The notes under the pieces are model-generated. The model saw nothing but the letters and a program-made list of their open reading frames with translations. It made no database searches and had not been told where the DNA came from. Both the position numbers and the translations under genes were made by a program. A DNA stretch of 64,000 nt from Lunularia cruciata (taxonomy: Eukaryota; Streptophyta; Marchantiopsida; Lunulariales; Lunulariaceae): positions 44,373,034-44,437,033 of the forward strand of contig OX419762.1 in the NCBI GenBank assembly GCA_948567375.1, written 5' to 3'. Below are positions 22,800-62,285 of this stretch, one piece after another. Positions within the stretch are counted from its first letter, which is position 1, and each line of letters begins with the position of its first letter.

Positions 22800-23560
22800 T
22801 GAGTTTAGAGGAGAACACAAAGATATAGCCTCCAGTTTTTCTGGCGGATATCAGGTCCAAAGTAAAAGACTTGATCCAAGCCAAACTTGGTCAACCCAAA
22901 GATCATTGGGTCAAGGCCATACATACTCCGATTACCATCCTGAAGCACCCTAAAGTCCAATTTTGAGCAAGGATAGACTTCGGTTCCAAAGATGCAGGCA
23001 AAGAAGGTGAAATTGGGAGGAGTTCTACTATATGTTATTGTGGCTAATATGACGTCTACAAGTGCTAATGTCACATTTAAGCAATTGTGGGAGGACAATA
23101 AGCTGTACAAAAAGAAGCTGAGTTTAACCCTCAAGAAAGTAAAGGCGATGACCAAGAAAAACTTGCCCACAATTTATCATATTGAACAAGAAGATTTGGG
23201 ATCTCCCAAAGTGGATGCAGAGATCACAGGCTGCATGATCACATCCATAACCATTGATTTGGGGTCGGGTGTGAATGTTATGATAGAAGACACTGCACTT
23301 TGACTGGGGTATATAGCGTTTGAACCAACACCCCAAATTCTGAAATTTGCGGATCAAACGAGGAGACAGCCCTTGGGCATGCTGTCAAATATCACTACGA
23401 TCATTGGAGAGGTGCCCTTCAAGTTAAATTACTTTTTGTTGCAACCAATAACCAAAACTGGTTACCCTCCCTTGATCGGAAGACCCTGGTTGTATAGTGC
23501 CCAAGTTACTGTGGATTGGCACCAACAAAAGTTAAGGTTTAAGAACATTCTGTCCAAAGA
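22800..23560 (+). pseudogene. Linker and retropepsin-like protease
   Basis: Active-site sequence TIDLGSGVNVM near 23255, then PLIGRPWLYSAQVTVDWHQQ near 23475, the IGRPWL motif common in Athila/Tat-type proteases. A TGA at about 23301 lies between the two motifs. Open pieces are 22992-23303 and the start of 23373-23945. Confidence 0.85.
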
Positions 23561-25354
23561 TCAGAAGCAAGTAATCATGAGTTGGATGAAGGTTCCTCAC
23601 CTTGGGGAAACTACTTCATTGGAAGACAAAGATGAATCCAAAGATTCATCGTCTTTATCTTTCAAAGACTCCAAAGACAAAGTCCAAGTTTATTATCTGG
23701 AATGCTACAAGGTAGAGGTCAAAGACAAAGACCCATACAACATTGCCTCAGGTGAACAAGACTTGGAGGAAGGGAGTTTGACTGCAGTACGTCTTGGATT
23801 GAGCCGAGTAAGCCATGTCAAAGGCATCATCAACCCCAATGACTGTCAAGATGTTATCTTGATTGAAGGAAATTTTTTGAAGATTTCAAAGACAATCACT
23901 TTGGAGGGGTTGGCAGGATACATTGCCCTGTTTATAGAATTCTAGGATGTATTTGCTTGGTCTATTGATCAAATGCCAGGCATTCCACAAGAATTTGGAG
24001 AACACCGGATTGATCTGATTGAAGGTGCAGTTCCGGTTTGGCAAAGATAATACCACCTGAACCCAAAGTACTCCCTCTTAGTGAAAGACAAAATTGACAA
24101 GTACTTAGGGGCTGGAATAATCTTTCTTGTCTTGAGCAGTGAGTGGGTTTTCCCATTGTCATCGTTCCAAGGAAGAAGACAAGAAAGATTTGAGTGTGCC
24201 AGGATTTTCGCAAGTTGAACGTAGTGACACGGAAGGATCATCATCCTTTGCCTTTTACTGATACAATTTTGGACCAAGTAGCTGGTCACCCTTGTTATAG
24301 TTTTCTTGATGGATTTTCAGGGTACAATCAAGTATCCATCCAAGAAGAGGACAAGGATAAAACTACATTCACCATTGATTGGGGCACTTTTGCTTACAAT
24401 CAAATGCCCTTTGGGTTGTGTAATGCTCCCACTACTTTCCAACAGATGATGAATGTGATCTTCAAGGATTTTTTGCACAAATTTGTGGAGGTCTTCATTG
24501 ATGGTTTTTGTGTGTGTGGGCATAGAGATGTACATTTGGATTACCTTTGCCAAACTTTTGAAAGGTGTGGTTTTGCCAATTTGTCATTACACCCAGAGAA
24601 ATGCTTCTTCACAATGAGGGAGGGAATTCTTCTAGGGCATTGGGTGTCAAGCCAAGGTATTGAAGTCGATGTCAAGAAGGTTAAAGTAATCTCAGCTTTG
24701 GAATCTCCAAAGAATATTTGGGAGCTAAGAGCCTTCTTAGAACATGTCGGATACTACAGACGCTTTGTGTCAAACTATGCGGTGCTTGTTGCACCCCTTA
24801 TAAAGCTACTGAAGAAGTCCAAAGACTACTTGTGGGAAGCCGCACAAGAAGATGCTTTCCAAGTATTGAAGCGGAAATTGGTTGAAGCACCAGTTATGAG
24901 GGCCCCAATGTCCCTTTTCATGTGTATATGGATACTTTGTCCATGGCAATTGGAGTTGTCTTAAGTCAAAAGGACAAGAAGAAGAAGGACTATCCGGTTT
25001 ATTATGCCAGCCAACAATTATTTGTCTCAGAAAAGAACTATTTGACAATTGAACGAGAAGCACTCAGAATGGTGTATGCCTGCAAGAAATATTTGCCACT
25101 ACCTACTGGGATACGAGTTTGTCTTCTATGTTGACCATTATGCATTGCAACATTTGGTCAAGAAGGCAGATTTGTTCGGGTGCATTGCAAGATGGATCTT
25201 GTTGTTACAAGAATTCACAAACACTATACAAGTAAGGAAAGGAGCTTCACATTCAAATGTGGACTTCTTATCCAGGTTAGAAACTCAAGACCAAGACTTG
25301 GAAGTCAATTATCGGTTTCATGATGAAGAGCTATATCATCTGATGGCTGTTTGA
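23561..25354 (+). pseudogene. Reverse transcriptase and RNase H, catalytic motif altered
   Basis: The RT N-terminus is recognisable at about 24000-24190 in shifted frames. From 24194 to 24964 the frame is open: CQDFRKLNVVTRKDHHPLP, YSFLDGFSGYNQVSIQ, MPFGLCNAPTTFQ, then VEVFIDGFCVCG where related enzymes have a DD pair, so the second catalytic Asp is Gly here. RNase H begins MYMDTLSMAIGVVLSQ (24922) and continues with YVDHYALQHL in another frame (25049-25354). The altered motif and frameshifts make the enzyme inactive as read. Confidence 0.9.
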
Positions 25355-25447
25355 AGTACAAGGTATGTGGCCAAATATCACTATCTGCATATGTGTCATT
25401 GTCCTGAGGTGTTGGACCCAAAGTAGAGGGCAATTTTCATCTGGAAG

Positions 25448-26667
25448 ATGGGACCATACCAATTAAAACACAACATTTTGTTTAAGATGGGCAAAGATGA
25501 AGTACTTCGGAGATGTTTGGAGGCATACAAAGTCGGAGCAGTCATGGAATCCTTACACTCTGAAACATCGGGAGGACACTATGCCTTGAAAAATACGGTG
25601 AAGAAAATCCTTTCAGCAGGGTATTGGTGGCCTACAATCTATAAAGATACTTATGCCCATAGTCAAAGTTGTGATGCCTATCAAAGAATAGGGAAATCAA
25701 CGGCAACTTCCCAATGGCCTTTGAAACCAATTTTGCCATTGGCCCTATTTGAGAAATGGGGTATTGATTTTGTGGGTCCCATTCAACCAGTGACCAGAGT
25801 CATGAGGAAGAGATACATCTTGGTATGCACTAATTATGCGACCAAGATGGTAGAAGCGGAGGCAACACAAAGAGATGATGCATAAATAGTTGCAGAATTT
25901 TTCTTCCGAAACATCATTTTTTGTTATGGGTGTCCTTTGGAATTGGTCAGTGATTGGGGAACTCATTTTTGGAACTCAATGGTGGAAGAGTTAACCAAGT
26001 ACTTCCAAATTAAACATTGGAAGACCACGCCTTACAACCCAAAAGTGAATGGACTCACGGAGAAGGCCAATGGATTGTTGTGCAAAATTTTGAAGAAGAT
26101 GACAGTCAATTATGCCTACGACTGGGACACAAAGTTACATGCAGCTTTGTGGGCATATAGAAAAACTTAAAAGATTATTACCAAGCAAACTCCTTATTTC
26201 CTGATATACGGATTGCATCCATACTACCAGTTGAATTTGAAGTACCGACATATCAGATTCTTTGTGAAGAACAATTGTTGGAGGAAGAAAGCCAGGATCT
26301 TTGGATCCATCAACGGATGTGGTTAGAAGAGAAAAGGGATGATGCAATGCAAACCACAAAGGAAGTCCAAGAACAGCGGAAGGTCAAGCACAATAAAAGA
26401 ATCAAGCTTGTGGCTGTTCAGAAACGGGACTTGGTGTTGTTATATGACAATCGCCGCATATTCTTTCTAGGGAAACTACATTTGAGGTGGATGGGGCCAT
26501 ACCGTGTTATGCACATATATGCCAATGGCTCTATTCAACTTGCAGACCTGGACGGCAATCCTTTTGCCACTCGAGTAAACAAGTGGAGGGTTAGAAAATA
26601 TTGGACCACGGACCTAACTTTGTATAAAGAACCGGTTGTCGGTGTTCACGGGGACGCTCACATTTGA
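25448..26667 (+). pseudogene. Integrase, no chromodomain
   Basis: The open piece 25448-25885 has the zinc domain (LHSETSGGHY then SQSCDAYQR, the last Cys replaced by Tyr) and the first catalytic Asp in WGIDFVGPIQP. The second Asp is in LVSDWGTHFWN and the Glu in GLTEKANGLL (25937-26170). A C-terminal piece at 26275-26667 has HLRWMGPYRVMHI, the GPY/F module. Stops near 25883 and 26168 separate the pieces. The ORF ends ten bases upstream of the LTR; no chromodomain follows. Confidence 0.9.
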
Positions 26668-26678
26668 GGGAGGGGGTA
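26666..26678 (+). other. Polypurine tract
   Basis: GAGGGAGGGGGTA directly abuts the 3' LTR start TGTGGTGCCC. The same arrangement on the minus strand occurs at 31664-31676. Confidence 0.85.
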
Positions 26679-27953
26679 TGTGGTGCCCACATTTTATGTT
26701 TTTTTCTGTTCATTAGTATTTGGGAGAAGAAGTAAACAAAGAAAGCTAAATTGCAAAAGAAGGAATGGACAAAAGTGACTTTGGAGGAAATCTGATGAAG
26801 TCAAGATCGGATCCAATGATGGAGGTACTCAAGAGAAGGGTAGAAAGAAAGAAGTCCAAAGAGCATTGTCTTCAGATTGGGAAGCAAAGGCTGATACGAA
26901 GACCATCTAGCAACCTTGGTATGTGGCAAGAAAGTACACTTCAAGAAATGGCGGAGACAGAAGAAGCATGTCTTGAAAGTGAGGACAACAACACGGAGAA
27001 GAAGAGGAAGTCAATTTTGAAATCAACTAAAGAATGATTGCAATTCAGGGTAATATTAAAGTGCAATTGCATAGGGACAAGTTGAATATGTCAAGTAGAT
27101 TTCCAATCCCTTTGAGTAGTCGCCCTGTAGTAATGTGTGTCCGGAAGCCAATTGTCTTGTCCAGGAGAAGGAATAGTTTTCTAGTGCCAAAGAATGAGAG
27201 AGCAGATCATGGCAAAGAAGGTCACAAATGCTCTAGCAATGCAAAGTTTTGCAATTTGTAGGTTAGACATCGTAGCAAGGATTGAAGTCTTGAACAGACT
27301 TTTATTACCTTTTTAGCATGGGACTGGAATTTCAGTTTTGTAGGAGTCATGGCAGAGATAGCTGCCGTAATTGTGAGGACAGCCCCAAAGTCAAGGAGAA
27401 GAGAGGAAATCCGGCTCAATGGACTGAGTGGGATTGGAGGTTAGTGTTGGGGAAGGAAGCAGGAGAACCGATGGAGATCACTTTCTATCAGAAGTGTGAT
27501 GTTGCAAAGGAGACGACAGAGATCCAACATTTGTTATTTGCTCTAAGTACAACAAATGGTTAGAAGGCGGAGTCCTATCGGGACCCAATTCAACAAAGTA
27601 TCATAGGGAAAATAATGGCCATGTTCAAACCAGAACGAATGACTTACGTGAACATGCAGCAGGCGGTCTTTTTCCACCAGATGTTTGCAGGAGTGAAGGT
27701 GACATCACAATCAAGATTTGTTTGGACAGCATTTGCTTTGGTGTGATTATATGTGTGTGTATTTGTGACAAGTTGTCAAGATTGTGAGCTTGTTACTCTC
27801 TTCTAGGTGTGGTTTCTACCTAAGAGATTAAAGACCAAGAAGAGCTGAAATTGTTACTTTGCTTTGTATTTGACCAATTCTGAATCTTATCTCTGTGGGA
27901 ATGAACTTTACTTACCCGATTATTGCAAAAGTGATATTTTCTGGGGTGTCATA
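26679..27953 (+). repeat. 3' LTR with 2.4-kb internal deletion
   Basis: Collinear with the 5' LTR to about 27700 (GTTTGCAGGAGTGAAGGTGA, equal to 17813-17832), then jumps to sequence equal to 20254 onward and ends TGTCATA. It keeps the first third of the LTR ORF (26765-27690) and the LTR terminus; the coiled-coil part is gone. Confidence 0.85.
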
Positions 27954-31675: not shown

Positions 31676-32690
31676 AAATGTGAGTGTCCCTGCAAACATA
31701 GACCTCGGGTTACTTCCCGCCCTCCAAGTCTATCATCCAAAATTTCTGAACTCTCCACCTGTTCACTCAAGTGGAAAATGGTTGCCCCTCTAAGTCTGCA
31801 AGTTGAATGATCCCGTTGTCATAAAGATGAAGTTCTCAATAAGGGCCCATCCATCTCAAATGCAATTTGCCTACAAAAAAATTATTTGGCAATTGTCATA
31901 TAACAAAACCAAGTCTCCTTTGGGAATAGTAATAGGCTTGATGTGCTTATTGTGGCTGACTTTCCTCTATTCTTGTACTTCTTTTGTGGTTTGCATTGCA
32001 CAATTGATGGATCTGCAGATCTTGACTTTCTTCTTTGGACAACCATTCCTCACACAAAATCCGGTACGTCGGTACCTCAAATTCAATTATAGGATGGGAT
32101 GCAAGCCGAATGTCAAGAAGTATGGAGTTTGCTTGGTTGTGATCTTTTCTATCATTTGATATACCCACAACGTGGCTGGTAACTTTGTATCCCAATCATA
32201 GGCATCATTTTAGTCACCTTACTAAGAATTTTGCAGAGTAACCGATTCGCCTTCTTTGTTAGACCATTTGCTTTGGGATTATAAGGAGTTGTCTTTTGAT
32301 GTTTAATCTAAAAGTACTTGGTTAATGCCTCCATCACAAAGTTCAAGAAATATGTCCCTCTATCACTGACCAATTCCAAAGGACATCCATATCGGGAGAT
32401 ATTATTTTGAAAGAAATATTCTGCAAATCTTTTTGCATCAACTTTATGAGTTACTTCAGCTTTGACCATCTTGCTAGCATAGTCAGTGCAAACCAAAATG
32501 TATTGTTTTCTCATGACTTGGGTTACCGGTTGTATTGGTCCCACAAAATCAATTCACTATTTCTCAAATGAGGCCAATGGTAAAATTGGTCAAAGGCCAT
32601 TGGGAAGTAGCGATTTGCTTTTCCATTCTTTGACAAGCGTCACAATTTTGAATATGGGCATGTGTGTCTTTATACATTGTAGGTCACCAA
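31676..32690 (-). pseudogene. Integrase core and C-terminus (minus-strand element)
   Basis: The piece 32308-32544 begins at MGPIQPVTQVMRKQYILV and has the second catalytic Asp in LVSDRGTYFLN. The first Asp lies just upstream behind a stop. Downstream, 31947-32195 and frames to 31676 correspond to the C-terminal half and GPY/F region of the plus-strand relative. Stops and small indels throughout. Confidence 0.8.
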
Positions 32691-34460
32691 TACCCCAAGG
32701 AAAGAATATTCTTTACACTATTCTTTAGGGCATAGTGTCACCCCATGCTTTGGAGTGTAAAGACTCAATTACTCTTCCAACTTCATATGCCTCCAAGCAT
32801 TGCCAAAGTACTTTGTCTTCACTCATCTTGAATAAAATGTTGTGTTTAAGCTGATACAACCCCATTTTCTTGAGAAAGACTGCCCTCTGCTCTAGGTCCA
32901 GCCCATCAAGACACTGGAGAGTATGTAGATAGTGATATTCTGCTGCATACCTTGTACTTCTCATTGCTGTCAAATGATATAACTCTTTGTCAAGGAAACA
33001 ATTGTCGACCTCCCATTCTTGGTCTTGAGTTTCTAACCTGGATAGGAAGTCCATGTTAGAATGCAAAGCTCTCTTCCTAATTTGTATAATAGATATGAAT
33101 TCTTGTAATAACAAGATCCATGTGGCAATTTGCCTAGACAAGTCTGCCTTCTTGACCAAATGTTGCAACACGTAATGGTCAACATAGAAGACAAACTCAT
33201 ATCCCAAAAAATAGTGGCAAAACTTCTTACATGCATACACCATTTTGAGTGCTTCCTTTTCAATTGTAGAATAATTTCTTTCTGAAACCAAAAGTTGTTG
33301 GCTGGCATAATAGATTGGGTAATCCTTCTTCTTGTCATCCTTTTGACTCAAGACTACTTCAATTGCCATGGATGAAGTATCCACATATACATGAAAGGGG
33401 CATTCCTAATTTAGAGCCCTCATAATTGGTGCTTCAACCAGTTTCTTCTTCAATACCTAGAAAGCTTCTTCTTGACTTGCTTCCCATAGGTAGTCTTTGG
33501 ACTTCTTCAGAAGGTTTGTAAGGGGTACAACAAGCACCACATAGTTTGAGATGAAGCGTTTGTAGTATATGACATGTCCCAAGAAGGCTCTCAACTCTTG
33601 GATGTTTTTTGGGGATTCCAAAGGTGAGATAACTTTTACCTTCTCAAAATCTACTTCAATACCTTGGCTTGACACCGGATGCCCCAAAAGAATTCCTTCC
33701 TTCATTGCGAAGCAGTTCTTTGAGCAGTAAAAAAGCAGTTCTTTGAGTGTAATGAAAAACCGGCAAAATGGCACCTTTCAAAATTTTGGTGAAGGTAATC
33801 CAAATGTACATCTATTTTCCCAAAAAAAAAAAATCATCAATGAAGACTTTCACAAATTTGTGCAGAAAATCCTTGAAGATTGTATTCATCATCCGCTGGA
33901 AAGTAGCAAGAGAATTACACAACAGAAAGGGCATTTGATTGTATCCTTGTCCTCTTCTTGGACCAATACTTGATTGTACATTGAAAATCCATCAAGAAAA
34001 CTATAGCAAGGATGCCACTTGATCCAAAATTGTGTTGGTAAAGGGCAAGGGATGACGATCCTTCCTTATAATTGCATTCAATTTGCAAAAATCTTGGCAC
34101 ACTCAAATCTTCCCAATTTTCTTCTTCAGGACAATGACAATGGGTGAGACCTACTCACTGCTTAAGATAGGAAAGATTATTCTGGCTCCCAAGTACTTGT
34201 TGATTTCATCTTTCACCAAGAGTGACTACTTTGGATTCAGATGGTACCATCTTTGCCAAATTGGAACTGCGCCTTCAATCAGATCAATCTGGTGTTCTCC
34301 AAATTCTTGTGGAATACCCCGCATTTAATCAATAGACCAAGCAAATACATCATGGAATTCTATAAATAGGGCAATGTATCTTGCCAATGCCTCCAAAGTG
34401 ACTGTCTAGAAATTTTCAAAATTTTTCATTCAATTAAGACAACACCTTGACAGTCATCGG
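32690..34460 (-). pseudogene. Reverse transcriptase and RNase H (minus-strand element)
   Basis: RNase H plus the start of integrase is open over 32725-33384 (MDTSSMAIEVVLSQKDDKKK, KEALKMVYACKKFCHYFLGY, FVFYVDHYVLQHLV). The RT C-terminal part is open at 33457-33774 (LLGHPVSSQGIEVD, LRAFLGHVIYYKRF). The RT core at 33775-34460 is recognisable only in broken frames and includes a short A-run at about 33822-33832. The segment is cut at 34460 by the methyltransferase element. Confidence 0.85.
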
Positions 34461-34911
34461 TGTCACGCCATTTGTAGTTCCGCATCTAGATGCTCGGACA
34501 CTGGACTTCTAGTGATGGTAGTTAGAGTTATTCTAGCAGTTTCTCAGGGACTACTTTCCGACGGTTAGATTTTGTGTTCGGGGTACTGACTTCATGGTGG
34601 GGCCCACCGTCACTTTGCACCGTTTGCACCGTCGAGTGTGCCATCAGCGGGACCGTTAGGGTTTCAGGGCTAGCTCGAGTCCAAGGGGTATAGTTTCGAA
34701 GTGAGCTCCAGAGAGCTCACTTCTCTGATGTTGAGCCTTCGAGTTCTTGGCTATGGTGGACAGAGGCCGGCGAGCGTCACTTGGATTCTCTATGCTTGAG
34801 TGGGTGTGGCTTGACTGTAATCAGTGCCCAGTTGTTGGCAGTTTATAGAGTGACAGATCAAGTACTGATCTGAGTTGAGTTGAGTTGAGAGTGTTAAGCA
34901 ATCTGATTACA
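34461..34911 (+). repeat. 5' LTR core of the methyltransferase element
   Basis: TGTCACGCC to CTGATTACA. The first 449 bp (to 34909) match 44052-44500 without length change and with about 13 differences by eye, nearly all transitions. It lacks the 106-bp segment that flanks the 3' copy on both sides. ATCAGAG at 34911-34917 may be what is left of an initiator-Met-type PBS (TGGTATCAGAGC), but the match is partial. Confidence 0.85.
34698..34723. repeat. Perfect 11-bp inverted repeat in the LTR
   Basis: GAAGTGAGCTC, 4-nt loop CAGA, GAGCTCACTTC. The same palindrome is at 44289-44314 and at 62131-62156 (loop TAGA), so both arms are conserved in all three LTR copies. Could be a dimeric factor site in DNA or a hairpin in RNA. 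Confidence 0.85.
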
Positions 34912-35184
34912 TCAGAGAAGTGAAGTCAGGGGGAAATCGGGTGCAGGAACGTTGAGTGTTGGTGGTATCTCCAAGCTCGGTGGATCGTGGTAGCTCGATT
35001 CAGGTTCTGTGTTTCCCTAGTGTGCAGAAGCTCGTGTAGTTGATGCAAATTTGGCAGTTAGGCGGACGGTGTGAGGAAGCGCTGGCCAAATTTCGAGCAA
35101 AGAAGGAGCAATTTTTGAGCAGTGTTGTGATTTTGAGCTCAGGAGGTGAAGGCAGGACCAATTTGATGCGAGTTGGGCTCAGAA

Positions 35185-35625
35185 AGTGAAATTGAAGGTG
35201 GAGTTGGAAAGCTCTTCTCATGAAATTGTGATTTGGAAAAACCCGTTTTGTCAATTTGGCTCGAGTGGAAAGTTAGCGGGGGCAAGACGGACATCCATCT
35301 TTAGGGTTTACGTCAGATTTTACGTCAGATTTACGTCAGATTTTTGGGCCAGAATTGGAGGAGTTTCGCTGTTTGGCCAGATTTGGAGAAGTTTCGCTAG
35401 TTTGGAGGAAAGTGAAATTGAAGGTGGAGTTGGAAAGCTCTTCTCATGAAATTGTGATTTGGAAAAACCTGTTTTGTCAATTTGGCTCGAGTGGAAATTT
35501 AGCGGGGGATTTGGCGGACATCCATCTTTAGGGTTTACGTCAGATTTACGTCAGATTTTTGGGCCAGAATTGGAGGAGTTTTGCTGTTTGGCCAGATTTG
35601 GAGAAGTTTCACTAGTTTGGAGGAG
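35185..35625 (+). repeat. Tandem duplication, about 226 bp, with ACGTCA clusters
   Basis: Copy 1 begins at 35185 and copy 2 at 35411, both with AGTGAAATTGAAGGTGGAGT and extending through TTTGGAGAAGTTTC. Each contains tandem TTTACGTCAGAT units (three in copy 1, two in copy 2). On the minus strand these read CTGACGTAAA, the core recognised by plant TGA-type bZIP factors. Confidence 0.85.
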
Positions 35626-35758
35626 TTTCGCAGATTTGGAGAAGTTTCACCAATTTTGGAGGAGGTTCAAAGTGGCAACAAGAAAGGCCTCATTTGGGCG
35701 TTTAGAGGCTTCGAGGCATAGGGCTGTGGGCTATGAGAGGCTACGAAGGCCTAGAAGG

Positions 35759-35780
35759 GCCAGCAAGCCAGCTTGCTGGC
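35759..35780. repeat. Leader hairpin with 9-bp arms
   Basis: GCCAGCAAG, CCAG, CTTGCTGGC. Preserved base for base in the second copy at about 62336-62357. Function unknown; a palindromic loop in a leader could serve RNA dimerisation. Confidence 0.6.
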
Positions 35781-35850
35781 GTGAGGCTAGCTAGTTTAGT
35801 GTAGATCTTGGTCATTGGTTGGCAAAATCTGCCTTTCTTGCTAGATTGTG

Positions 35851-35918
35851 CGCAACAGGGATTGACCCCTAGATCTCTTGTTCCTAGACTGGTGCCCTAG
35901 CCAACTGGTCCATCCTCA
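35851..35918 (-). other. Antisense tRNA-like segment with A-box and B-box
   Basis: On the minus strand, 35912-35894 reads TGGACCAGTTGGCTAGGGC, close to the tRNA A-box TRGCNNAGTNGG pattern. Then 35868-35858 reads GGGTCAATCCC, close to the B-box GGTTCRANTCC, at tRNA-like spacing. The second copy (62488-62470, 62444-62434) has GGGTCAAACCC, an even better T-arm. I cannot fold a convincing full cloverleaf with a clear anticodon, so I call it tRNA-like or SINE-head-like, not a tRNA gene. Confidence 0.45.
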
Positions 35919-36379
35919 CTTGTTGTCATAGTGACTGTGCCACTGTTATCTATACACATGTAGCTTTGGCTAGGAGAGGCAGTTTGATCACATTCTTGGT
36001 GATCCTGGTAGCTTAGGACTTAGATACGAACTACTCTTATGTCAAATGCCAAATGGTGGCAGAGTCAGTCCTGTGTTGTGTTATGAGATGGAGGGTTTTC
36101 GTTTAGATTTCTTGTGATTGGATCCCCTCCATTCTCTGCTTCCTATTTGTGCACCACGTTTGTGTGAGGTGCCTTGACTTTTGAGCGTTGGTGCTCTGGT
36201 GTGCTCTCGGTGGTGAGGCTGGAGTGATGACCAATCAGACTACCTTTGTTTCTCTCCGGTGAGGTAGGAAGTGATGACCTGTAGACCGTGAGAGTGCGTG
36301 TTATGATGGCAGGTTACAGGTTGCCCTTCCCCTAGTGTAGTTATCTCGATTAGAGTTACATTAGTGGGTGGTGTTTTAG

Positions 36380-37785
36380 TTGGTGTTGGCACGCGGTGGT
36401 GTTGGCACTTGGTGGGGCACTTGCGGTTGTGACTTGCTGTTGCAGTTGGTGGTTCGGGTTTGTTGGTGTGGTTACTTTGTCACGACGGAGTTCTTTGGAG
36501 ATTCCAGAGGAGTTAGCCCTGTAGTACGCAGTGGGTTTACTCGGAGTGGTGCTCGGTATCAGCCTGTATCTCAGGTCCCGGTGAGGGAGAAGATTGACTC
36601 TGAGTTGGAGTTCAACACAGGAGCTGATTCAGTTGAGAGTGCACTTGGTGTGTCCGCACCGTTGTTGTGGGACATGGACGAGATTTATGGGGCCTCCAAA
36701 GGCCCTAGGTGTTACTCTGGTACAGTGGGTACTATTGAGTTGGATGACTTCATCCAGGAGTTCGATAGTTGGTGTGATCTGCAACAGATGCGGAACCCGA
36801 CTTTGTTCACACCCTTCATGGCATGGAAGGGGTTGTTTCAGCACTTGGAGGGTCCACCGATGGACGACTACCATGAGTTCAGGAGAGCTCATTTGGAGGA
36901 GATTGAGTTATGGAGACAGTATTGGTCTCCACACTATGTCTCCATCACTTCAGGTTCGGTGGCCAGGAGTAGGTTGGCTGTACCTACGAGTTCTAGCTCG
37001 AGTAGTGTTGGTGGAGCTAGTGGAGGTGCACTAGCTGGAGATAGTGCTACTACGAGTAGAGGTACCGTTGCAGGAGGTGGTGTGGTACCGGGGTTTAACC
37101 CCATGGTTGAGTTCTTCCTATGTTTGAGGTAGAACTACCAGGGAGTGCGGACTGACAAGCTGAGGAGCTTGCAGGAGTTCCAACGGAAGGCTGGAGAGAG
37201 CCTACGCGAGGCATACACTCGCATGAGGCGGCTGATCAGTTTCACTCAGGGAGTTACTGAGGCCCAGGCAGTCCAGTTTTGGTATGGGATACTGGCCAGG
37301 GAGTTGCGACGTAGAGTTCGTGATGCTACGTTGTTGCAGGCTACTTCGCCTACTTTGGCAGTAGTCTTTGGTTTGGTTGAGCGTATTGAGCTCAACATGG
37401 TGGAGGAGAGAGTGGTGACAGCTGGATTTGGTAGAGAGACCTCATCCACGGTTGTGACTTCTTCTAGAGTGTAGTAGAGTGCACCACGCCCAGTTGGTTT
37501 TTGAGGACAAGGTGGACAGCCCAGATCCTATGGAGTGAGTGGAGGGCCTAGTGGAGTTAGACCCTTACCCTCATTTTCGGGTCAGCAGCAGCCAGTAAGT
37601 GGTGGTGTTGCTTGTTGGACTTGTGGTGGACCTCACCATAGGAGAGAGTGTACTAAGGGCAGCGGACCTGATACCTCTGGTGCATCACAGCCAGCACAGA
37701 GGCAGTGTGAGCATTGCCACAGATTTGGTCACACTAGTGACCGGTGTTTTGACCTCACCCGGAGTTACGGAGTGGTAGGGCTACT
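36380..37785 (+). pseudogene. gag of the methyltransferase element
   Basis: One frame with interruptions. A conserved segment (DSVESALGVSAPLLWDMDEI, ELDDFIQEFDSWCD, MAWKGLFQHLEGPP) is followed by a Ser/Gly linker, the capsid motif LRSLQEFQRKAGESLREAYT (about 37160-37220) and two zinc knuckles, CWTCGGPHHRREC near 37613 and CEHCHRFGHTSDRC near 37708. TAG at 37130-37132 is CAG in the second copy, so that stop is secondary; TAG TAG at 37472-37477 and a TGA near 37502 follow. No in-frame ATG precedes the conserved part, so the true start is unknown. Confidence 0.85.
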
Positions 37786-38181
37786 ATGGCAAGTAGTAGA
37801 GGAGCTCCAGTTCATGGAGGACGAGGTGGTAGAGGTGGTGGTAGAGGATCTACACCTAGTAGGGGTGCAGTACCTGCCCTTACTTCTGACACAGCTATGG
37901 CTACTCGGATTGAGCAGTTGGAGCAGAGATTGGCTAGTATGGCTATTGCTCAGAGGAGATCAGATTCGGGTGCTGAGGCTTCCACCTCATATGCTGGTGA
38001 TAGAGATGCTTTGGACTTCATGTGCGGAGCAGCACAGGTGGATGCATCTACAGCAATGACTAGGAGTGCAGTACGTGCTCCAGAGCCTAGAGGAGCATCA
38101 GTGGAGTTGGACCCACAGAGAGGAGAGGTTGGGAGACAGGTCAGACTTCCCCAATCTTTCAGGCTATCTGAGGCATTGTAG
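37786..38181 (+). pseudogene. Gly/Arg-rich and acidic linker, gag-protease junction
   Basis: The frame is one base back from gag. It starts with an RGG-like run (GGRGGRGGGRGS), a motif class that binds RNA, followed by a short coiled-coil stretch with RIEQLEQRLASMAIAQRR. It ends at a TAG (38179) and the same frame resumes at 38182. It may be the gag tail joined after a one-base deletion, or the start of a separately framed protease ORF. Confidence 0.6.
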
Positions 38182-39380
38182 ACGACATCCATGGTTCCTA
38201 GACGTCCCAGTGCAGGTGTGGTAGGTGGTGATGGAGTACTTGATGGAGTACCTGCTAGTCAGCCACCTGCTACTACACAGACTGAGTCTAGCATGATGTT
38301 GGGGGCGGCTCAGCTGATTATGCGGCATCCTTCATTTTCAGCCAATGACATGTTTACATTGGGAGTTGACCCAGCCCCAGTGTTCCGGTTGGCTGCCACG
38401 TTGTGTGAGAGTAGGGATGGTGCGGTTCCTACTACTAGAGCAGAGGTGGTTGGTAGTGGAGCTGACTTGGTTGAGGAGCATGGGATCCGTTCAGCGACCA
38501 GTGGTTTATGGCAGGCAGCAGCGGCTAGACTAGAGGAGTTGCCAGCTAGACCGGCCTTTGAGAGAGCGCAGTTTACACCTGGTGTTGTCCTATTGGATAA
38601 CCAGAGGGGGATCTTTTGTTTAGTGGGACCTTCAGGGAAGGTCTATACACCACAGAGAGTCTTGTTAGACTCTGGTGCGCAACCCCTTATGTTGGGGAAG
38701 GCTGCAGTTGTTGGTCTGGAGTTACGGAAGACCGATGTGGAGAGGTGTCCATTTCAGATCCAGACATCTCTAGGTGGGGGTTCGACACAGTACATCACAC
38801 GTGGGGAGCTTGTTGTCCAGGTTCAGCCTGGTCATCCGACTGATAGCTCAGTGGTGAGAGCTCAGGCTATTGCGACGATAGCTGAGTCATATGATGTGCT
38901 AGTTGGGGGAGAAGTGTTATACCCTATGGGTTTCAGTATTGACTATTGGGAGGAGACAGCCTCTTATAGACCTGGTTGGCAGTCTGGTGAGGGACGGGTA
39001 TGTCGCCTACCAGTACGTTCCAGTAGTGGCAGTCTTGGCTCACTACAGTCCGGGACCATGGCAGCATCAATTTTAGCTTTCAGCGGTGCAGTTACTTGGC
39101 CTGGTGACTTGTTGGAGGGGAACGCCCATGCAGAGGATACTCCAGTACCAGAGGAGATCACTCGGCTATGGAGTACGAGTGGGATTGTTCCATCCACCTT
39201 GGATGTTCCATTGTGGAGTTCAGAGGAGGCATTGCAGCAGCATGCAGATCAGTTGGTGCAGCAGGCTTGGAGTGGAGCCTTTGTACCATCAGGGGATGAG
39301 TGTGAGGATGAGCCTCCAGAGGCAATTGCTTTGACACCTCTGGATACCACACTCATTGCTTGGCAGTACCCAGTAGAGGG
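38182..39380 (+). CDS. Retropepsin-like protease region of Pol
   Basis: Part of an open frame running to 39468. The active-site loop RVLLDSGAQPLMLGK lies near 38660-38700 and YDVLVGGEVLYPMGFSIDYW near 38890-38945 corresponds to the second conserved protease motif. A roughly 140-residue connector without recognised domain then leads, in the same frame, into motif I of the methyltransferase, so protease and methyltransferase are parts of one polyprotein. In relatives the protease releases Pol domains; whether it frees the methyltransferase is unknown. Confidence 0.8.
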
Positions 39381-40330
39381 GATATGCCTATTGGAGTTGT
39401 TTGGTGGGATCAGCACCGGACTAGCTGCGGTGTTACAGGCGGGTATCCGAGTACAGAGGTACTTGTAGTAGAGAGAGATGAGACTGCTAGGCGAGTCTCT
39501 CTACATCATGTGGCACACTTGGCCTATCGGTATCCGGAGTTATTACCGATGTCATCAGTCAGAGGTTACCAGAAGGCCTTACCAGGAGACATTTCCTTAC
39601 TGGGGGCGTATGACCTAGAGAGACATGGGCCTATTCACTTGGTGATTTCTGGATGGCCATGTCAGGGACATACACATGCGGGCCATGGTTTGGGTCTTCA
39701 GGATCCTCGTTCTGGTGTGTTTTGGGAGATGTTAAGTATACTATGACATCTCCAGGTTCATCAATCTATTTCTCCAGCTTACCTTTTGGAGAACGTTCCA
39801 TTGATGGGTGATTCTCGCACTAGAGTGGTGGCGAGTACACATCAGGTCCATTCATGGATGGGACCTGCTGTATTGTTAGATGCAGCCAGAGTGGGATCAC
39901 GGGCTCATCGTCTTCGTCTTTGGTGGACGAACCTTTTACCCAGAGAGGTTCTACAGCGTAGTTATGATGGGATTCAGCGACTTGACCACATCCTTGTTGA
40001 TGATATCTTGGATGTTGGGCGTCAGTCTCAGACAGTGGTAGTGGCTGATAGGTCACCTATGGTAGTGGTGAACCTAGTTGGACAGCCTAGAGCTGCATTT
40101 CCCACACTCATGAGTTTCCCAGGCTCTCATGCTTTTCGAGAGGGAGGACCTGGACTTGTTTGGGACTCACAGTTACAGCAGTTGGTGGAACCCAATGCTG
40201 ATGAGAGAGAGCGGGCGATGGGTTTTCACACCAGTATTACCGCTGTTCCAGCAGTGTCAGAGGCATCCAGGCGTCAGGTGTTAGGTCAGGCTATGGACCT
40301 GAACTGTTTGACCTGGATTGTGAGCCTTGG
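39381..40330 (+). pseudogene. DNMT3-like cytosine-5 DNA methyltransferase domain within Pol
   Basis: Motifs are in the ordinary order I to X, not rearranged as in DRM enzymes. Motif I is LLELFGGISTGLAAVLQAG (39388-39444). After a one-base frame change near 39465 comes VVERDETARRVSLHH. Motif IV is ISGWPCQGH with the catalytic Cys at 39660-39662. Motif VI is LLENVPLMGDSRTRV (Glu at 39789). Motif VIII-like RVGSRAHRLRLWWTNL is near 39890. There is a short target-recognition region, then motifs IX-X with ERAMGFHTSITAVP and RRQVLGQAM (40211-40296). The short recognition region and ENV.MG..R.R layout resemble DNMT3. TGA at 39744-39746 breaks the frame. Family activity: transfer of methyl from SAM to cytosine C5. 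Confidence 0.9.
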
Positions 40331-40772
40331 TTTGGCAGAGCAGCGTAGGATGCGCTTGATAGGCATCACCACTCGGACACTTGTGAGCCTTGTGCCTATC
40401 AAGACGATTCAGGCACATGCTGGGGGCGATGGACCGAGTGGACATGGTATTCTTGGGACACATCCAGTAGCTACTAGGGAGAGTGGTCTACTTGGAGTCC
40501 ATCCAGGTGAGCGTGGGCTACTTGGATTACACCCTTGGTCCACATGGGATGCAGCCAGAGGACGTATGGAGCTTGCAGCCAGAGTGGAGGGAGTTTTTCA
40601 CACAGAGGTTGGGACCTCTAGTGGTCGAGAGCATGACACCATTGCTCCCAAGGGCCCAGTGTAGCAGCCAGTCAGTACGTCTTCCACTCCTACTACAGTT
40701 ACAGAGGATACTTGGGAGCCAGATCTTGGACCCAAGCTTACTGGAGAGGAAAGACGGAGGGTTTGGAGGTTC
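40331..40772 (+). pseudogene. Methyltransferase-RT linker
   Basis: Same frame as the methyltransferase and RT, with one TAG (40662-40664). It includes three consecutive variants of a short Gly/His motif (GHGILGTHPV, SGLLGVHPGE, RGLLGLHPWS) at about 40440-40530, a small degenerate peptide repeat. No catalytic domain recognised; probably a spacer between enzyme modules. Confidence 0.6.
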
Positions 40773-42497
40773 TTGAGGAGTCACACAAGTTGTTTTGCCT
40801 TCAGTATGAAGGATTTGGGTGCTCTGAAGGGACCTAGTATACGGATTGAGCTGACTAGCGACACACCTGTTTTCCGACGTCCTTATCGATATAGTGATAT
40901 GGAGAGGACATTGATTCAGAGCCGGAGTAGTGACCTTTTTGAGGCTGGTTTGGTGGAGATTTCACATGGAGAGTATGCATCAGCGACAGTGATGCCAGCC
41001 AAGAAGGATATGCATGGCAACTATATAGATAGGCGGATGTGTGGAGATTACCGTCCTATCAACCGACATACTAGGGCTGATCGGTATGCCATGCCTACAC
41101 CGGAGGAGATTTTTGATGCGATTGGGCATGCAAAGGTCTTCAGTACTTTGGATCTTCGAGCGGGATATCATCAGTTGCCGATCAGGGAGGAAGATAAGTC
41201 CAAGACAACATTTTGGGCTATTGATCCTCACGGCAAGGATGTGTTATATCAGTGGAGGTTCTTACCATTTGGGTTAAAGAACGCTCCTGCTAAGTTCCAG
41301 AGGGTCATGGATAGGATCCTAGCTGGATTGGATTTTTCTCGGTGCTATATTGATGACATTTTGGTTTATAGCACTACTGTGGAGGAGCATGAGAGACAGT
41401 TGTTGGAGGTGTTTGAGAGGTTGAGATCTCATGGACTCAAATTACATCCTGGGAAGTGTAGGTTCTTCCATGAGCAGGTTGAGTATTTGGGTCACACTAT
41501 CTACCCTGGAGGACTTGGTGTCCAGCAGACCAAGGTGGAGGCTATTGCACGTATTCCCCGGCCTACGGATGTGAGCAGAGTGCGAGCATTCCTTGGGTTG
41601 GCAAACTTCTATCGACGCTATGTTAGAGGATTTAGTGCCATTGCCAAGGCCTTGACAAAGCTGACCAAGCTTACACAGGAGTGGTGTTGGGGAGATGAGC
41701 AGGAGAGAGCTTTTGTAGAGCTCAAGGAGAGGTTGACATCTACTCCTATTTTGAGGAGACCGATCAGGGGACGACCATTTCAGGTTCACATTGATTGGAG
41801 TATGTTGGGGCTTGGAGCAGTGCTCACCCAACATGATGATGAGGAGAAGGAGTTTGTGGTGGCCTATGCTAGTCGCTCCAACAATTCAGCGGAGGCAAAG
41901 TATAGTTCATATGAGGGAGAGTGCTTGGCAGCAGTTTGGGCAGTAGCACATTTCCGATGTTACCTATTTGGTAACCCCTTCACTCTCATCACTGATCATC
42001 AGCCACTGAAATGGTTGATGGAGTCCGACAAGCTTTCAGGGAAGCTTGCACGATGGGCTCTGATTTTACAGGAGTATGATTTCACGGTTGTTCACAGACC
42101 TGGAGTGGTGAACCGTGATGCAGATGGGTTGAGTAGAAACCCATGTCCCAGCCAGCAGGATCAGACCGGAGCACGTTGGCATGGTGAGACAGATGAGGAG
42201 ATGGTGCCAGGTTGGCATGCATCGGCCTTTCTGTGTATATTTGCAGAGACTTTGGTGGTATCTCTCTCAGCGCATACAGGAGGAGTTATTGAGGTCACAG
42301 ATCTAGAGAGTGAAGATATTGGTACAGTTCAGCGAGACATTCATGATGATGTCTTAGTGATGGACTATCTTCGCACTGGTGTTGTGGGTGGCACAGTTGG
42401 GACAAGGAGAGAGACCGTGTTCTTCAGCGAGCCAAACGGTTCAGATTGGAGGGTAGACACCTTTTGCGTGTATGGGAGGATGGTAGAGTGCGAGTAG
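40773..42497 (+). CDS. Reverse transcriptase and RNase H of the methyltransferase element
   Basis: Open for 574 codons. RT motifs: MCGDYRPINRHTRADRYAMP, FSTLDLRAGYHQLPI, LPFGLKNAPAKFQ and catalytic CYIDDILVYS (about 41344). The connection has VRAFLGLANFYRRYVRGF. RNase H catalytic residues are all present: HIDWSMLGLGAVLTQ, YEGECLAAVWAV, LITDHQPLKWL and NRDADGLSR. A roughly 110-residue tail follows. It is in frame with the upstream methyltransferase apart from two stops. This is the best preserved RT in the window. Confidence 0.95.
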   Translation: MRSHTSCFAFSMKDLGALKGPSIRIELTSDTPVFRRPYRYSDMERTLIQSRSSDLFEAGLVEISHGEYASATVMPAKKDMHGNYIDRRMCGDYRPINRHTRADRYAMPTPEEIFDAIGHAKVFSTLDLRAGYHQLPIREEDKSKTTFWAIDPHGKDVLYQWRFLPFGLKNAPAKFQRVMDRILAGLDFSRCYIDDILVYSTTVEEHERQLLEVFERLRSHGLKLHPGKCRFFHEQVEYLGHTIYPGGLGVQQTKVEAIARIPRPTDVSRVRAFLGLANFYRRYVRGFSAIAKALTKLTKLTQEWCWGDEQERAFVELKERLTSTPILRRPIRGRPFQVHIDWSMLGLGAVLTQHDDEEKEFVVAYASRSNNSAEAKYSSYEGECLAAVWAVAHFRCYLFGNPFTLITDHQPLKWLMESDKLSGKLARWALILQEYDFTVVHRPGVVNRDADGLSRNPCPSQQDQTGARWHGETDEEMVPGWHASAFLCIFAETLVVSLSAHTGGVIEVTDLESEDIGTVQRDIHDDVLVMDYLRTGVVGGTVGTRRETVFFSEPNGSDWRVDTFCVYGRMVECE

Positions 42498-43475
42498 TAC
42501 CACTTCCATCACAGAGACCACAGTTGGTCCGTCATGCTCATGAGGAGCTAGGACATTTTGGAGTAAAGCGTACATATAGCTTACTCCAGAGATTATTGGT
42601 GGTGCGGTATGCGGACCGAGGTACAGTAGTTTGTTGCCAGATGTGTGGTTTGTGACCGAGTTAGAGCATCATTCAATGCTCCTACGCCACAGTTACACCC
42701 ATTACCTATCATGGGATTGGGTTACCATTGGAGTTTGGACTTTGCCGGACCTTTACCGCTGACTGTGAGACATCATCGGTATGTTTTGGTGATGGTGGAG
42801 CACTTCTCCAAGTGGATTGAGTTGGTGGCACTTCCTGACAAGTCTAGTGAAGGGACAGCTTACTCGTTCTTGGATCGAGTTCTTAGTCATTTTGGTGCAC
42901 CAGCAGAGGTTTTGACTGATCAGGGTACAGAGTTCTTGGGAGAGTTTCAGGTCTTGTGTGACAAGGCTTTGATTGATCATCGTACTACATCCCGAGATCA
43001 CCCTGAGGCAAATGGCTTAGCAGAGAGAGTGGTTCAGACGGTGAAGAGAGGATTATGAAAGTATGGTTTGCAGAGAGGCCACTTGGGAGATTGGGATCTC
43101 CAGTTACCTTGGTTGGCCATGGGCTATCGGTTCAGCCGGCAAGCCTCCTTAGCATCCTTCTCTCCATACTTTCTACTCTATGGACGAGATCCAGATTTAC
43201 CTGTAGCCATTCGTTGAGATGCTACTGTAGTTTTGGACTTGGATGACCCCGATGTATGGATGAGCGCATGTTCTCAGCGGGCAGAGATCTTTCGGAGAGT
43301 GATGCCGATGGCCTTTGAGAACTTGGCAATTGCTCAGCATAGAGATACTTTACGCTATGCTACCATTCAAGGAGGAGGTTATAGACCCTCGATCCGTTGA
43401 TTTCATCCAAGCGACTATGTATATCTACAGCAGACAGCACCGACGACACTTGATGTTTCTACAGGCCGCACTATC
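42446..43475 (+). pseudogene. Integrase of the methyltransferase element
   Basis: The zinc domain is split by two compensating single-base shifts: H-H (RHAHEELGHFG) at 42530-42560 in one frame, then MVCDRVRASF with the last Cys from 42645 in the RT frame. The catalytic core is intact: D in WSLDFAGPLPL, D in VLTDQGTEFLG, E in NGLAERVVQTVKRG. The frame then continues through TGA at 43056-43058, 43215-43217 and 43398-43400 with recognisable sequence (FSPYFLLYGRDPDLP, FHPSDYVYLQQ). Confidence 0.88.
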
Positions 43476-43775
43476 TTGAGAGTGCACGAGGTTTTGCCAT
43501 CTGGAGTCCTTGTGTTAGAAGGACGTGATGGTGTTGTTTGGAAGGATCATGTGCGCAATTGTGCGCCATGCCACCTTCCAAACATTGATGGTACTATGGA
43601 CCCAAGCTTGGCACTTGTACGTGCAGGCTTGAGGTGTATGTTATGTGGCTCTTCTGGTGGAGCTGCTACTATGTTAGTGTGTGATAGCTGTTCGAGAGGA
43701 TGGCATATGGCATGTATGACTCCTCCCCTCACGGTGGTTCCTCAGGGACAGTGGTTATGTCCTAGATGTACTTGA
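43476..43775 (+). CDS. Integrase C-terminal tail with PHD finger
   Basis: Same frame as the integrase core. RVHEVLPSGVLVLEGRDG resembles the end of the gypsy integrase C-terminal module. A canonical C4HC3 PHD finger spans 43635-43769: CMLC, then 11 residues, CDSC, SRGW, H, MA, C, 15 residues including TPPL and GQW, CPRC. All eight zinc ligands and the Trp two residues before the last Cys pair are present. The ORF ends three residues later. PHD fingers commonly read histone H3 tails; here one occupies the position of the chromodomain in chromoviruses. Confidence 0.9.
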   Translation: MRVHEVLPSGVLVLEGRDGVVWKDHVRNCAPCHLPNIDGTMDPSLALVRAGLRCMLCGSSGGAATMLVCDSCSRGWHMACMTPPLTVVPQGQWLCPRCT

Positions 43776-43943
43776 CCTATAGCTAGTTCATTCTTTATAT
43801 GGTATAGATTGCAGACAGGCGACTAACGATGGGGCTCCATAGCACCCGGCCTCCTGATCTTTGCCCATTAGAGGGTATACCATATACTTAGAGTAGATGG
43901 CTATCTGGAGTTAGAGGGACCTAACCGCCAGCTAGGGGGGCGA
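43776..43943 (+). other. 3' untranslated segment with inverted repeat and polypurine tract
   Basis: Contains TATATGGTATA (43796-43806) and its exact complement TATACCATATA (43876-43886), able to form an 11-bp stem. A purine-rich AGGGGGGCGA at about 43934-43943 is placed like a polypurine tract, directly before TTGTGGCAC. Confidence 0.6.
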
Positions 43944-44051
43944 TTGTGGCACTTTAGAGTCTATGTATGACTTATGTGTGAGTTGTGCTTCTATAGTGTA
44001 TGATGTTGACAGCGATGTATGTTGTGTAGCGATATATATACGCACGACAGC
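43944..44051 (+). repeat. Terminal segment T1, inner copy
   Basis: TTGTGGCACTTTAGAGTC to ACGCACGACAGC. It repeats at 44501-44606 with two mismatches. It follows the polypurine tract and precedes the LTR core, as U3 would. Confidence 0.85.
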
Positions 44052-44500
44052 TGTCACGCCATTTGTAGTTCCGCATCTAGATGCTCAGACACTGGAGTTC
44101 CAGTGATGGTAGTTAGAGTTATTCTAGCAGTTTCTCAAGGACTACTTTCCGACGGTTAGATTTTGTGTTTGGGGTACTGACTTCATGGTGGGGCCCACCG
44201 TCACTTTGCACCGTTTGCACCGTCGAGTGTGCCGTCAGCGGGACCATTAGGGTTTCAAGGCTAGCTCGAGTCTAGGGGGTATAGTTTCGAAGTGAGCTCC
44301 AGAGAGCTCACTTCTCTGATGTTGAGCCTTCGAGTTCCTGGCTATGGTGGACAGAGGCCGGCGAGCGTCACCTGGATTCTCTATGCTTGAGTGGGTGTGG
44401 CTTGACTGTAATCAGTGCCCAATTGTTGGCAGTTTATAGAGTGACAGATCAAGTACTGATCTGAGTTGAGTTGAGTTGAGAGTGTTAAGCAATCTGATTA
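44052..44500 (+). repeat. 3' LTR core of the methyltransferase element
   Basis: Same 449 bp as 34461-34909 with about 13 substitutions. It ends CTGATTA and passes directly into a second T1 copy. Confidence 0.9.
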
Positions 44501-44606
44501 TTGTGGCACTTTAGAGTCTATGTATGACTTATGTGTGAGTTGTGCTTCTATAGTGTATGATGTTGACAGCGATGTATGTTGTGTAGCAATGTATATACGC
44601 ACGACA
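44501..44606 (+). repeat. Terminal segment T1, outer copy
   Basis: TTGTGGCACTTTAG to CGCACGACA, ending at the target-site duplication. The TGTC start of the 5' core and GACA end of this segment form a short inverted terminal repeat, so these are the ends that were inserted. Confidence 0.85.
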
Positions 44607-45840
44607 TCGGTGTTGATGATTCCTTCCACATGACTCACTTGGCTCAATCCGAGTTGAGCTGCCATCAAACCCTCTCCCTTCAAGTCATGTTCACCCAAGG
44701 CGAGGTAATATGGGTCTTCATTGTTGGCGTCCACCTCGTAACATTCCAAGTAATTGACTTGGACTTTGTCCTCAAAATCTTTGAAAGACAAAGACAATGA
44801 GTCTTCAGATTCATCCTCATCTCCTGACAAAGTTTTTTCCCCAAGATGGAGAACCTTTGTCCAACTCACGGTCACCAGCTTCAGGTCTTTGGACAAAATG
44901 TCCTTAAACCGCAACTTTTGCTAGTGCCCATCCACCACAACTTGAGCACTATACAACCAGGGTCTTCTGATCAACAATGGGTAACTTGTTTTGGTCATTA
45001 GTCACAACACAATGTAATTCAACTTGAAGGGCACCCGTCCAATGACTATGGTAATGTTTGATAGCATGCCCAATGGTTGTCTCCCGGTTTGGTCTGCAAA
45101 TTTCAAAACTTGGGATGTTGGCTCAAACATATGATACCCCGCCAATTTGCAGTATCTTTGGTTATGACATTCACACCGGAACTTGAATCAATGGGTATCA
45201 ACATGATCATGCACCTTGCAATCTCCACATCAACTTCCGGAGATCCCAGATCTTCTTGTTCAATTTGATAAATAGCAGGCAGGTCCTTTTTAGACATCAC
45301 CTTTGAGAGCGGAATTTAGTTGCTTCTTATACAACTTATTGTCTTCTCATAGTTGCTTGAATGTGATGTTTGACTTGTAGATGCCAAATCTGCTACAATA
45401 TTGTATTGAGGTACTTCTTCCAATTTCACCTTCTTTGCCTTTGTCTTTAGATTTGAAGTCTCACCATGTTCAAATTTGACTTTGGGGCGCTTCATGATGG
45501 TGATTGGAGTACTAGTGGTCTTAACCCAAGGTCCCTCAGGTTGGCCCACCTCGGCTTGGATCAATCCTTCACTTTGGATCTGATGTTCACCGGAAAAATT
45601 GGAGGCTTTGTCTTTGTCTCCTCCTCCAAACTTATCTCTTGAGTTCTGAGTATTGCTTCCTTGAGTTCTTTCTGCAAAGCTTTAGCTTTAGCTTTGCTAG
45701 AATCTTTTCCTCCTTGGCAGAAATGATTGACTTTGGGCACAGTCTCTTTGCCTTTTGTGAGGATGAAGAGGTTGTACTTAGTTCCTTGGCGTCACGCTTC
45801 TTCTTACTTGGGTGTGTCTCAACCTTCAAAATTTTGAGGT
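44607..45840 (-). pseudogene. Protease and upstream linker of the minus-strand element
   Basis: Minus-strand pieces at 44498-44914 (its last part reads into the insertion), 45103-45300 and 45316-45829. 45103-45300 contains PIDSSSGVNVITKDTA, the protease active-site region with DLGSG changed to DSSSG. 44498-44914 has EDESEDSLSLSFKDFEDKVQ, matching the plus-strand relative at about 23625-23690. 45632-45829 is the basic gag tail. Stops and shifts separate the pieces. Confidence 0.8.
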
Positions 45841-61892: not shown

Positions 61893-62285
61893 TGTCACAC
61901 CATTTTTAGTGCCGCATCTAGATGCTCGGACATTGGAGTTCTAGTGATAGTAGTTAGAGTTATTTCAACAATTTCTCAAAGATTACTTTCCGACAGTCAG
62001 ATTTCATGTTTGGGGAAACGGACTTCACGGTGGGGCCCACCATCACTTTGCACTGTTCACACCGTTGAGTGTGCCATTAGCGGGACGGTTAGGGTTTCAG
62101 AGCTAGCTCGAGTCCAGGGGGTATAGTTTTGAAGTGAGCTCTAGAGAGCTCACTTCTTTGATGTTAAGCCTTCGAGTTCCTGGCTATGGTGGACAGAGGC
62201 CGACGAGCATCACTTGGATTCTCTATGCTTGAGTGGGTATGGCTTGACTGTAATCAGTGCCTAGTTGTTGGCTGTTTATAGAGGC
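61893..62285 (+). repeat. Truncated 5' LTR core
   Basis: Homologous to 34461-34856, including the 11-bp palindrome at 62131-62156. It starts at the same base as the first copy, with no T1 segment upstream, which supports TGTCAC as a real element terminus. Confidence 0.85.

Follow-up and report, generated by a model that had tools for sequence, protein, structure and literature searches.

A Ty3/gypsy-type retrotransposon at 34461–44606 of the window, as we call the whole 64,000-nt stretch of Lunularia cruciata DNA analysed here, almost certainly encodes a C5-cytosine methyltransferase (MTase). In the lineage of this element the Gag-protease product carries the MTase as its C-terminal domain, and the UAG between the MTase and the reverse transcriptase (RT) probably works as a readthrough stop, judging from sequence. 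The best explanation of the whole, which we hold to be rather probable, is an element with a gag-protease-MTase ORF, a leaky UAG and an RT-RNaseH-integrase-PHD ORF, which would methylate its own cDNA. The kind is already published as KnitGypsy-Dnmt3 of the alga Klebsormidium (PMC5890265). New, as far as literature searches show, are the bryophyte range, the placing of the MTase on the Gag side of a readthrough-type stop, the PHD finger, and the target-duplication evidence that an element with a DDE integrase truly ends in split repeats.

Anatomy of the element and identity of its methyltransferase

The coding regions and repeats of the element lie on the forward strand. Gag with zinc knuckles is encoded in frame 2 (36674–37756, with stops in the window copy; located by tblastn to Marchantia polymorpha P0260, gag being about 60–61% identical to that species), followed in frame 1 by the end of gag and an aspartic protease (37867–39465; LLDSGAQP; 54% identical to P0260). 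The MTase (39381–40334) sits after this protease and before the RT, with motif I in frame 1 (39381–39468) and motifs IV–X in frame 3 (39462–40334), and a C-terminal extension of the gag-protease-MTase ORF (40335–40661) reaches the point at which relatives' ORFs also end. Beyond the stop lie RT and RNase H (40704–42176; Pfam; 76–80% identical to liverwort relatives), the DDE integrase core (42630–43058; Pfam rve, 2.3e-14; 92.6% to Calypogeia P0121) and, at the C terminus of the pol ORF, a PHD finger (43635–43769; Pfam PHD, 9e-12, and PHD structures in the PDB). The order of protease, RT, RNase H and integrase is that of Ty3/gypsy elements, and relatives mapped onto the window cover the MTase (39462–40634) and the RT-RNaseH-integrase-PHD part (40704–43787), both in frame 3. 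The 5′ untranslated part contains a tandem duplication of a segment of about 220 bp (35182–35624; 91% over 229 bp with gaps).

An intact relative, L001, comes from a GTDB 'cyanobacterial' ('Synechococcales') assembly, into which this eukaryotic repeat was most likely mis-binned; its 9,158 bp join end to end through a 127-nt overlap. Its two ORFs, gag-protease-MTase and RT-RNaseH-integrase-PHD, are in frame with each other and free of internal stops. A search 3′ of the first terminal repeat gave no convincing tRNA primer site, the best agreement being 8 of 12 bases in the window and 7 of 12 in L001. Twenty further copies from the same genome were picked by their match to the MTase, a choice that leaves the share of copies lacking the domain outside their scope.

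The window copy is decayed: its mapped frames are broken by 13 stops, those at 40662 and 43773 not counted, and by two frame changes. Its MTase contains one frame change, within motif I, and one TGA at 39744, which is decay. Because relatives have one unbroken ORF and 17 of the 20 other copies run from motif I to motif X in a single frame when stops are ignored, the frame change is likewise decay of this copy, and a programmed frameshift inside motif I is ruled out.

The preliminary description had called the region a C5-MTase with motifs in unpermuted order, and this is borne out by the motifs, by the profile scores of relatives and by a family HMM. The catalytic Cys of motif IV, the ENV of motif VI and the RxR of motif VIII are all found, and these residues are conserved among relatives (Cys in 73 of 77, Glu in 102 of 114, the two Arg in 120 and 124 of 140). 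The order I-IV-VI-VIII-IX-X is unpermuted, in contrast to the DRM-type permuted host gene L009. By Pfam, the N piece of the window MTase scores 20.4 bits against DNA_methylase (PF00145), below the cut-off of 22, and the C piece gave no match in the scan of the window pieces; a single-sequence PDB search finds DNMT3A at E 0.1, near noise. Against the family HMM the C piece scores 348.5 bits, and 180 of 7998 scored candidates match it at E ≤ 0.01, the best at 4.6e-104. Five relatives pass the PF00145 cut-off (29.7–44.3 bits; P0008, 42.7 bits), which argues against placing the region outside the C5-MTase family; P0274 has no Pfam MTase match, yet is matched by the family HMM. The NCBIfam dcm model matches all six relatives scanned, only far below its cut-off (27–44 of 100.65 bits).

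Motif IV reads WEC, PEC or FEC in P0188, P0263, P0271 and P0274, whose element layouts differ from that of the window. In 8 of the 77 proteins that cover this column, the Pro otherwise conserved ahead of the catalytic Cys is replaced by Glu.

The narrower assignment to DNMT3 holds as regards structure. DNMT3A and DNMT3B are the top-ranked solved structures by a 50-row profile and by predicted fold; DNMT1 and CMT are absent among the matches listed in these comparisons, an absence that says no more than this. The PWWP and ADD domains of animal-type DNMT3s were not found by Pfam in the gag-protease-MTase proteins P0241 and P0260, and companion domains are absent also from protist and algal DNMT3s, according to the available text of PMC12344493. 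A host DNMT3 gene, in contrast, is only a candidate donor, since phage C5-MTases score equally by sequence: six of them reach 46–54 bits against the family HMM, DNMT3A/3B 44–51 and HhaI 27. For the host itself, a piece of the unpermuted DNMT3-like gene L008 reaches just 33.5 bits. In the MTase tree the retroelement clade stands apart (100/100) from phage MTases, DNMT3A/3B and HhaI, under long-branch and composition warnings; the donor trees, where this clade is again separate, hold two DNMT3 references, host pieces and phages only. These scores and this separation favour a phage, bacterial or viral DNMT3-like enzyme as donor over a host DNMT3 gene. The first rank of DNMT3A/3B by profile and fold speaks against such a donor, as do four MTase and RT scans of viral contigs, which gave no relatives, and we regard it as possible but on the unlikely side. 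The PCQ of motif IV is undiagnostic, being common to phages and L008. Candidate host MTase genes in the same genome are the unpermuted DNMT3-like L008 and L011 and the permuted DRM-like L009.

The stop codon before the reverse transcriptase and the proposed role of the methyltransferase

The MTase had been described as built into the Pol polyprotein. It does lie between protease and RT, but it ends the gag-protease-MTase ORF, and a conserved UAG precedes the RT. This in-frame boundary reads TAG CAG CCA in the window (40662–40670) and TAG CAA TCA in L001, both of which fit UAG-CAR-YYA. All 20 copies have the TAG, with CAGCCA after it in 18, CAGCAA in one and CAGCTT in one, and it is constant although the same copies bear many other stops, partly unshared. 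With the boundary sites included, CARYYA follows TAG in 5 of 2021 cases in the window, both strands counted, and in 2 of 190 in L001. Motif X could be found by pattern in 22 of 36 protein matches, and 21 of these 22 end 29–157 aa later without RT, though some ends may be set by contig ends or gene models; the other is an annotated gene model that runs on into RT.

It is very improbable that the boundary stop is ordinary decay of an element that makes MTase and RT as a single polyprotein, the arrangement first reported from Klebsormidium. The window copy does hold many decay stops, and P0263 and P0188 carry MTase and RT in one ORF, but relatives' ORFs stop at this point and the TAG at 40662 is not decay, since every copy and the intact L001 have it. 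A plant precedent, SIRE1, is reportedly a Copia element in which the stop precedes an envelope-like protein, unlike the arrangement here. The likeness is that SIRE1, a retroelement of soybean, also separates reading frames by an in-frame stop, whose suppression is described (PMC2194720). The UAG-CAR-YYA context is essential for readthrough in TMV, and in plants the TMV site gives 32% and the BNYVV site 11% readthrough (PMC2754532).

Because the MTase ends the gag-protease ORF before a UAG in readthrough context, it would be made at the level of Gag. Most ribosomes would halt at the UAG to yield Gag-protease-MTase and some would read through to the polymerase, so that every particle would contain the MTase at near-Gag stoichiometry. 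Once freed by the protease, the enzyme would methylate cytosines of new cDNA before integration, which would mark the cDNA as of the genome's own kind or set its later chromatin state. Methylation of its own cDNA within the particle is a step to which we give somewhat less than an even chance. The idea is close to a proposal already made for dinoflagellate elements, and expression of the Klebsormidium MTase in yeast is reported to have given no methylation, in a test that its authors call inconclusive (PMC5890265). CpG depletion, as a footprint of self-methylation, is absent from the window element (o/e 0.47, against 0.23 elsewhere in the window). For the MTase, the 28 pairs that can be formed from 8 of the 20 copies give a pairwise dN/dS of 0.41; shifted frames give 0.45 and 0.73, so this value lends no support to recent purifying selection.

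Alternatively, the MTase may target host chromatin: freed, or together with a complex of integrase and PHD finger, it would methylate the neighbourhood of the insertion, or it would imitate or counter host silencing. In favour are the PHD finger at the end of pol and the report that SymbioDIRS DNMT3s methylate a yeast genome (PMC5890265). The nearest PDB entries to the PHD finger include the PHDs of CHD4, PHF12, KMT2D and KDM5 type, and the finger would steer the integrase to a histone state; PF00628 is present in 14 of 120 listed RT relatives and in 4 of the 36 protein matches of the MTase search. In elements of the window type, however, MTase and PHD finger lie on separate ORFs and are therefore not obligatorily one protein, and we consider action on host chromatin unlikely.

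Split terminal repeats and integration

Two identical LTRs at the ends, a feature of Ty3/gypsy elements, were not found. Instead the element has the layout A1-coding-B1-A2-B2 of DIRS/PAT-like split repeats. A1 (34461–34909) begins with TGTCACG, has no B repeat upstream and is 97.1% identical to A2. At the other end, the polypurine tract AGGGGGG (43934–43940; a similar tract occurs in L001) lies just 5′ of B1 (43944–44049, ending in GACA), which is separated from A2 (44052–44500, beginning with TGTC) by the 2-nt spacer GC (44050–44051) at the centre of the palindrome GACAGCTGTC; B2 (44501–44606) closes the element with CACGACA. The pairs differ at 13 of 449 (A1/A2) and 2 of 107 (B1/B2) positions, 14 of these 15 differences being transitions. 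Such an excess of transitions between the window repeats is as expected from methylcytosine deamination.

The element is flanked by a 4-bp target-site duplication, TCGG (34457–34460 and 44607–44610), and is inserted in an older minus-strand gypsy element, of which an uninterrupted relative of the target site lies at 23833–23841 on the other strand. Further remnants of gypsy type, comprising RT, integrase and flanking parts, occupy 23300–26700, 12461–14800, 32200–33700, and 34001–34456 plus 44611–45000. The 5′ part of a second copy, with a TGTCACACC start, an A1 that is 89.5% identical, gag and an internal deletion, is cut by the window end (61893–64000, forward strand).

The B-A-B 3′ end recurs in 19 of the 20 other copies, with B2 only partial in L017 and L021. 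Besides the window, 12 of the 15 copies with both ends seen are bounded, at the start of A1 and the end of B2, by a perfect 4-bp duplication (L016, L018, L019, L020, L024, L025, L029–L031 and L033–L035, the A1 start of L035 being taken from the printed flank); L022, L028 and L032 are without it, and one end is unseen in L017, L021, L023, L026 and L027. DIRS, PAT and Ngaro elements are not known to make target-site duplications, in contrast to these 4-bp duplications. None of the fetched 5′ stretches of copies has B directly before A1, and the single B in such a stretch (L035) is part of another copy. In 16 of 20 copies A2 meets B2 at the joint CTGATTA|TTGTGG, and in 13 of 20 a 2-nt spacer (GC in 9) separates B1 from A2; GACAGCTGTCACG occurs 633 times in the genome, against once for the reversed control. 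A1 and A2 differ by 2.3–6.9%, transitions prevailing, in the 10 copies whose duplication is perfect and whose own pair aligns over more than 100 bases, a sample that excludes L031 (77 bases) and L035 (compared with a different copy). L018 was apparently inserted beside or within an older copy (5920–7740 in element orientation): directly after its B2 come an 86% link and 83–86% RT of that copy.

An ordinary LTR element, in which A1 is a 5′ LTR minus its B part or B2 a chance extra copy, fits the polypurine tract before B1, as at a normal 3′ LTR, but is hardly credible in view of the recurrent B-A-B end, of the duplications at A1 start and B2 end, and of L001, where B starts without TG and yet the B|A palindrome is the same as in the window.

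Pfam scans of the window pieces and of relatives found no tyrosine recombinase domain; the integrase is of the DDE type. PAT and Ngaro share the layout of A1-B1-A2-B2 split direct repeats, but carry a tyrosine recombinase (PMC4157794), whereas the window element combines this layout with a DDE integrase and 4-bp target duplications. Split repeats and duplications together imply that the integrated form is a circular permutation of an LTR-type cDNA. The integrase would use the GACA-GC-TGTC joint between B and A in a cDNA circle or tandem, and not ends defined by the polypurine tract; we put integration via this joint at close to an even chance. A fuller scheme is more tentative still: instead of a linear LTR cDNA for insertion, reverse transcription would yield a circle or tandem containing two B-A units, the integrase would cut the B|A palindrome and drop the spacer, the permuted insert would gain its 4-bp duplication, and the Gag-level MTase would mark the circle. 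Cutting at the proposed B|A joint resembles the use of abutted ends by copy-out-paste-in insertion sequences.

Relatives, known systems and significance

The element is high-copy in its genome. In a PF00145 search of this genome, 123 of 2161 candidates were scored and all 123 match, a few of them host genes, with open frames of at most 1428 aa. Relatives of the MTase extend over liverworts, Sphagnum and metagenomes. Among the best 120 of the 180 C-piece matches at E ≤ 0.01, which are those listed, 11 bear plant names: four from Calypogeia fissa, three from M. polymorpha, and one each from Marchantia paleacea, Riccia sorocarpa, Sphagnum troendelagicum and S. jensenii. Identity to the C piece is 71% for M. 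polymorpha, 70% for Calypogeia and 51% for L001. An MTase fragment, P0101, occurs in a bacterial 'Obscuribacterales' MAG, where mis-binning is probable.

The domain is found in all 20 MTase-selected copies and in other species, so the region is no one-off: a piece of a host MTase that landed in some unrelated gypsy element, which nothing except the broken frames of the window copy suggests, is ruled out for practical purposes by the identical place and order in those copies and species.

Further gag-protease-MTase ORFs (P0241–P0256) measure 715–1451 aa, two of 715 aa being shorter on the gag side or partial. Other layouts exist: MTase then RT in a single ORF (P0263, P0188), MTase between RNase H and integrase (P0271, P0274) and MTase after RNase H (P0233), and all five MTases fall within the retroelement clade of the MTase tree. 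In the RT tree the window type (10 rows) has 99/99 support, the RNaseH-MTase type (3 rows) 98/99 and the MTase-RT pair only 43/53, while named algal RTs fall outside the window and RNaseH-MTase types. Membership of the window type is to be read with care: besides the window and L001, the MTase is in the same protein only for P0130; P0121, P0122, P0127 and P0137 are labelled by similarity alone; and P0123, P0124 and P0126 are putatively paired with separate MTase proteins (P0060, P0252 and P0250), whose contigs have the same length as theirs. These layouts are compatible with a single capture and later relocation, or with transfer from element to element; repeated capture from one donor family may account for them instead.

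The preliminary description placed captured methyltransferases in a few algal or dinoflagellate retroelements, but they are not confined to these, as the liverwort and Sphagnum relatives show; a gypsy case was already known from Klebsormidium nitens (PMC5890265). That element, KnitGypsy-Dnmt3, likewise joins a gypsy element to an unrearranged DNMT3-type MTase, and a figure legend of De Mendoza and colleagues gives it DIRS-type repeats with gypsy domains, the same layout as here (PMC5890265). It is reported within the Pol polyprotein ORF, where the window element has a conserved stop between MTase and RT, and the available text, on whose description alone the comparison is made, has no mention of such a stop, a PHD finger, target duplication or readthrough (PMC5890265). 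A 2025 paper gives the streptophyte case as Copia (PMC12344493). Among the MTase matches listed that bear organism names, none is from Klebsormidium; the K. nitens RT proteins P0152 and P0201 (51% and 43% identity) have no MTase in their models. Plant chromoviruses, also of the gypsy type, bear a chromatin reader at the C terminus of the integrase, namely a chromodomain, and are not known to carry an MTase, where the window element has a PHD finger and an MTase. SymbioDIRS-Dnmt3 and SymbioLINE-Dnmt of Symbiodinium are also retroelements with captured C5-MTases, SymbioDIRS with split repeats, but they are tyrosine-recombinase or LINE elements and, per their authors, unrelated captures (PMC5890265). 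Going by titles and the beginnings of abstracts, the literature searched has no plant elements of this kind beyond PMC5890265 and papers citing it.

In the textbook view, cytosine methylation silences transposons, and here an element apparently makes its own MTase in bulk. The tie of repeat layout to recombinase type is also loosened: the element here, with a DDE integrase and target duplications, uses split repeats, a layout described from elements with a tyrosine recombinase (PMC4157794). A definite ratio of Gag-MTase to polymerase follows as a prediction from the stop context. As relatives in liverworts and Sphagnum keep the MTase, the benefit of DNA methylation to a transposon becomes testable, and because the family is present in the genetic model M. 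polymorpha, these questions are open to bench work.
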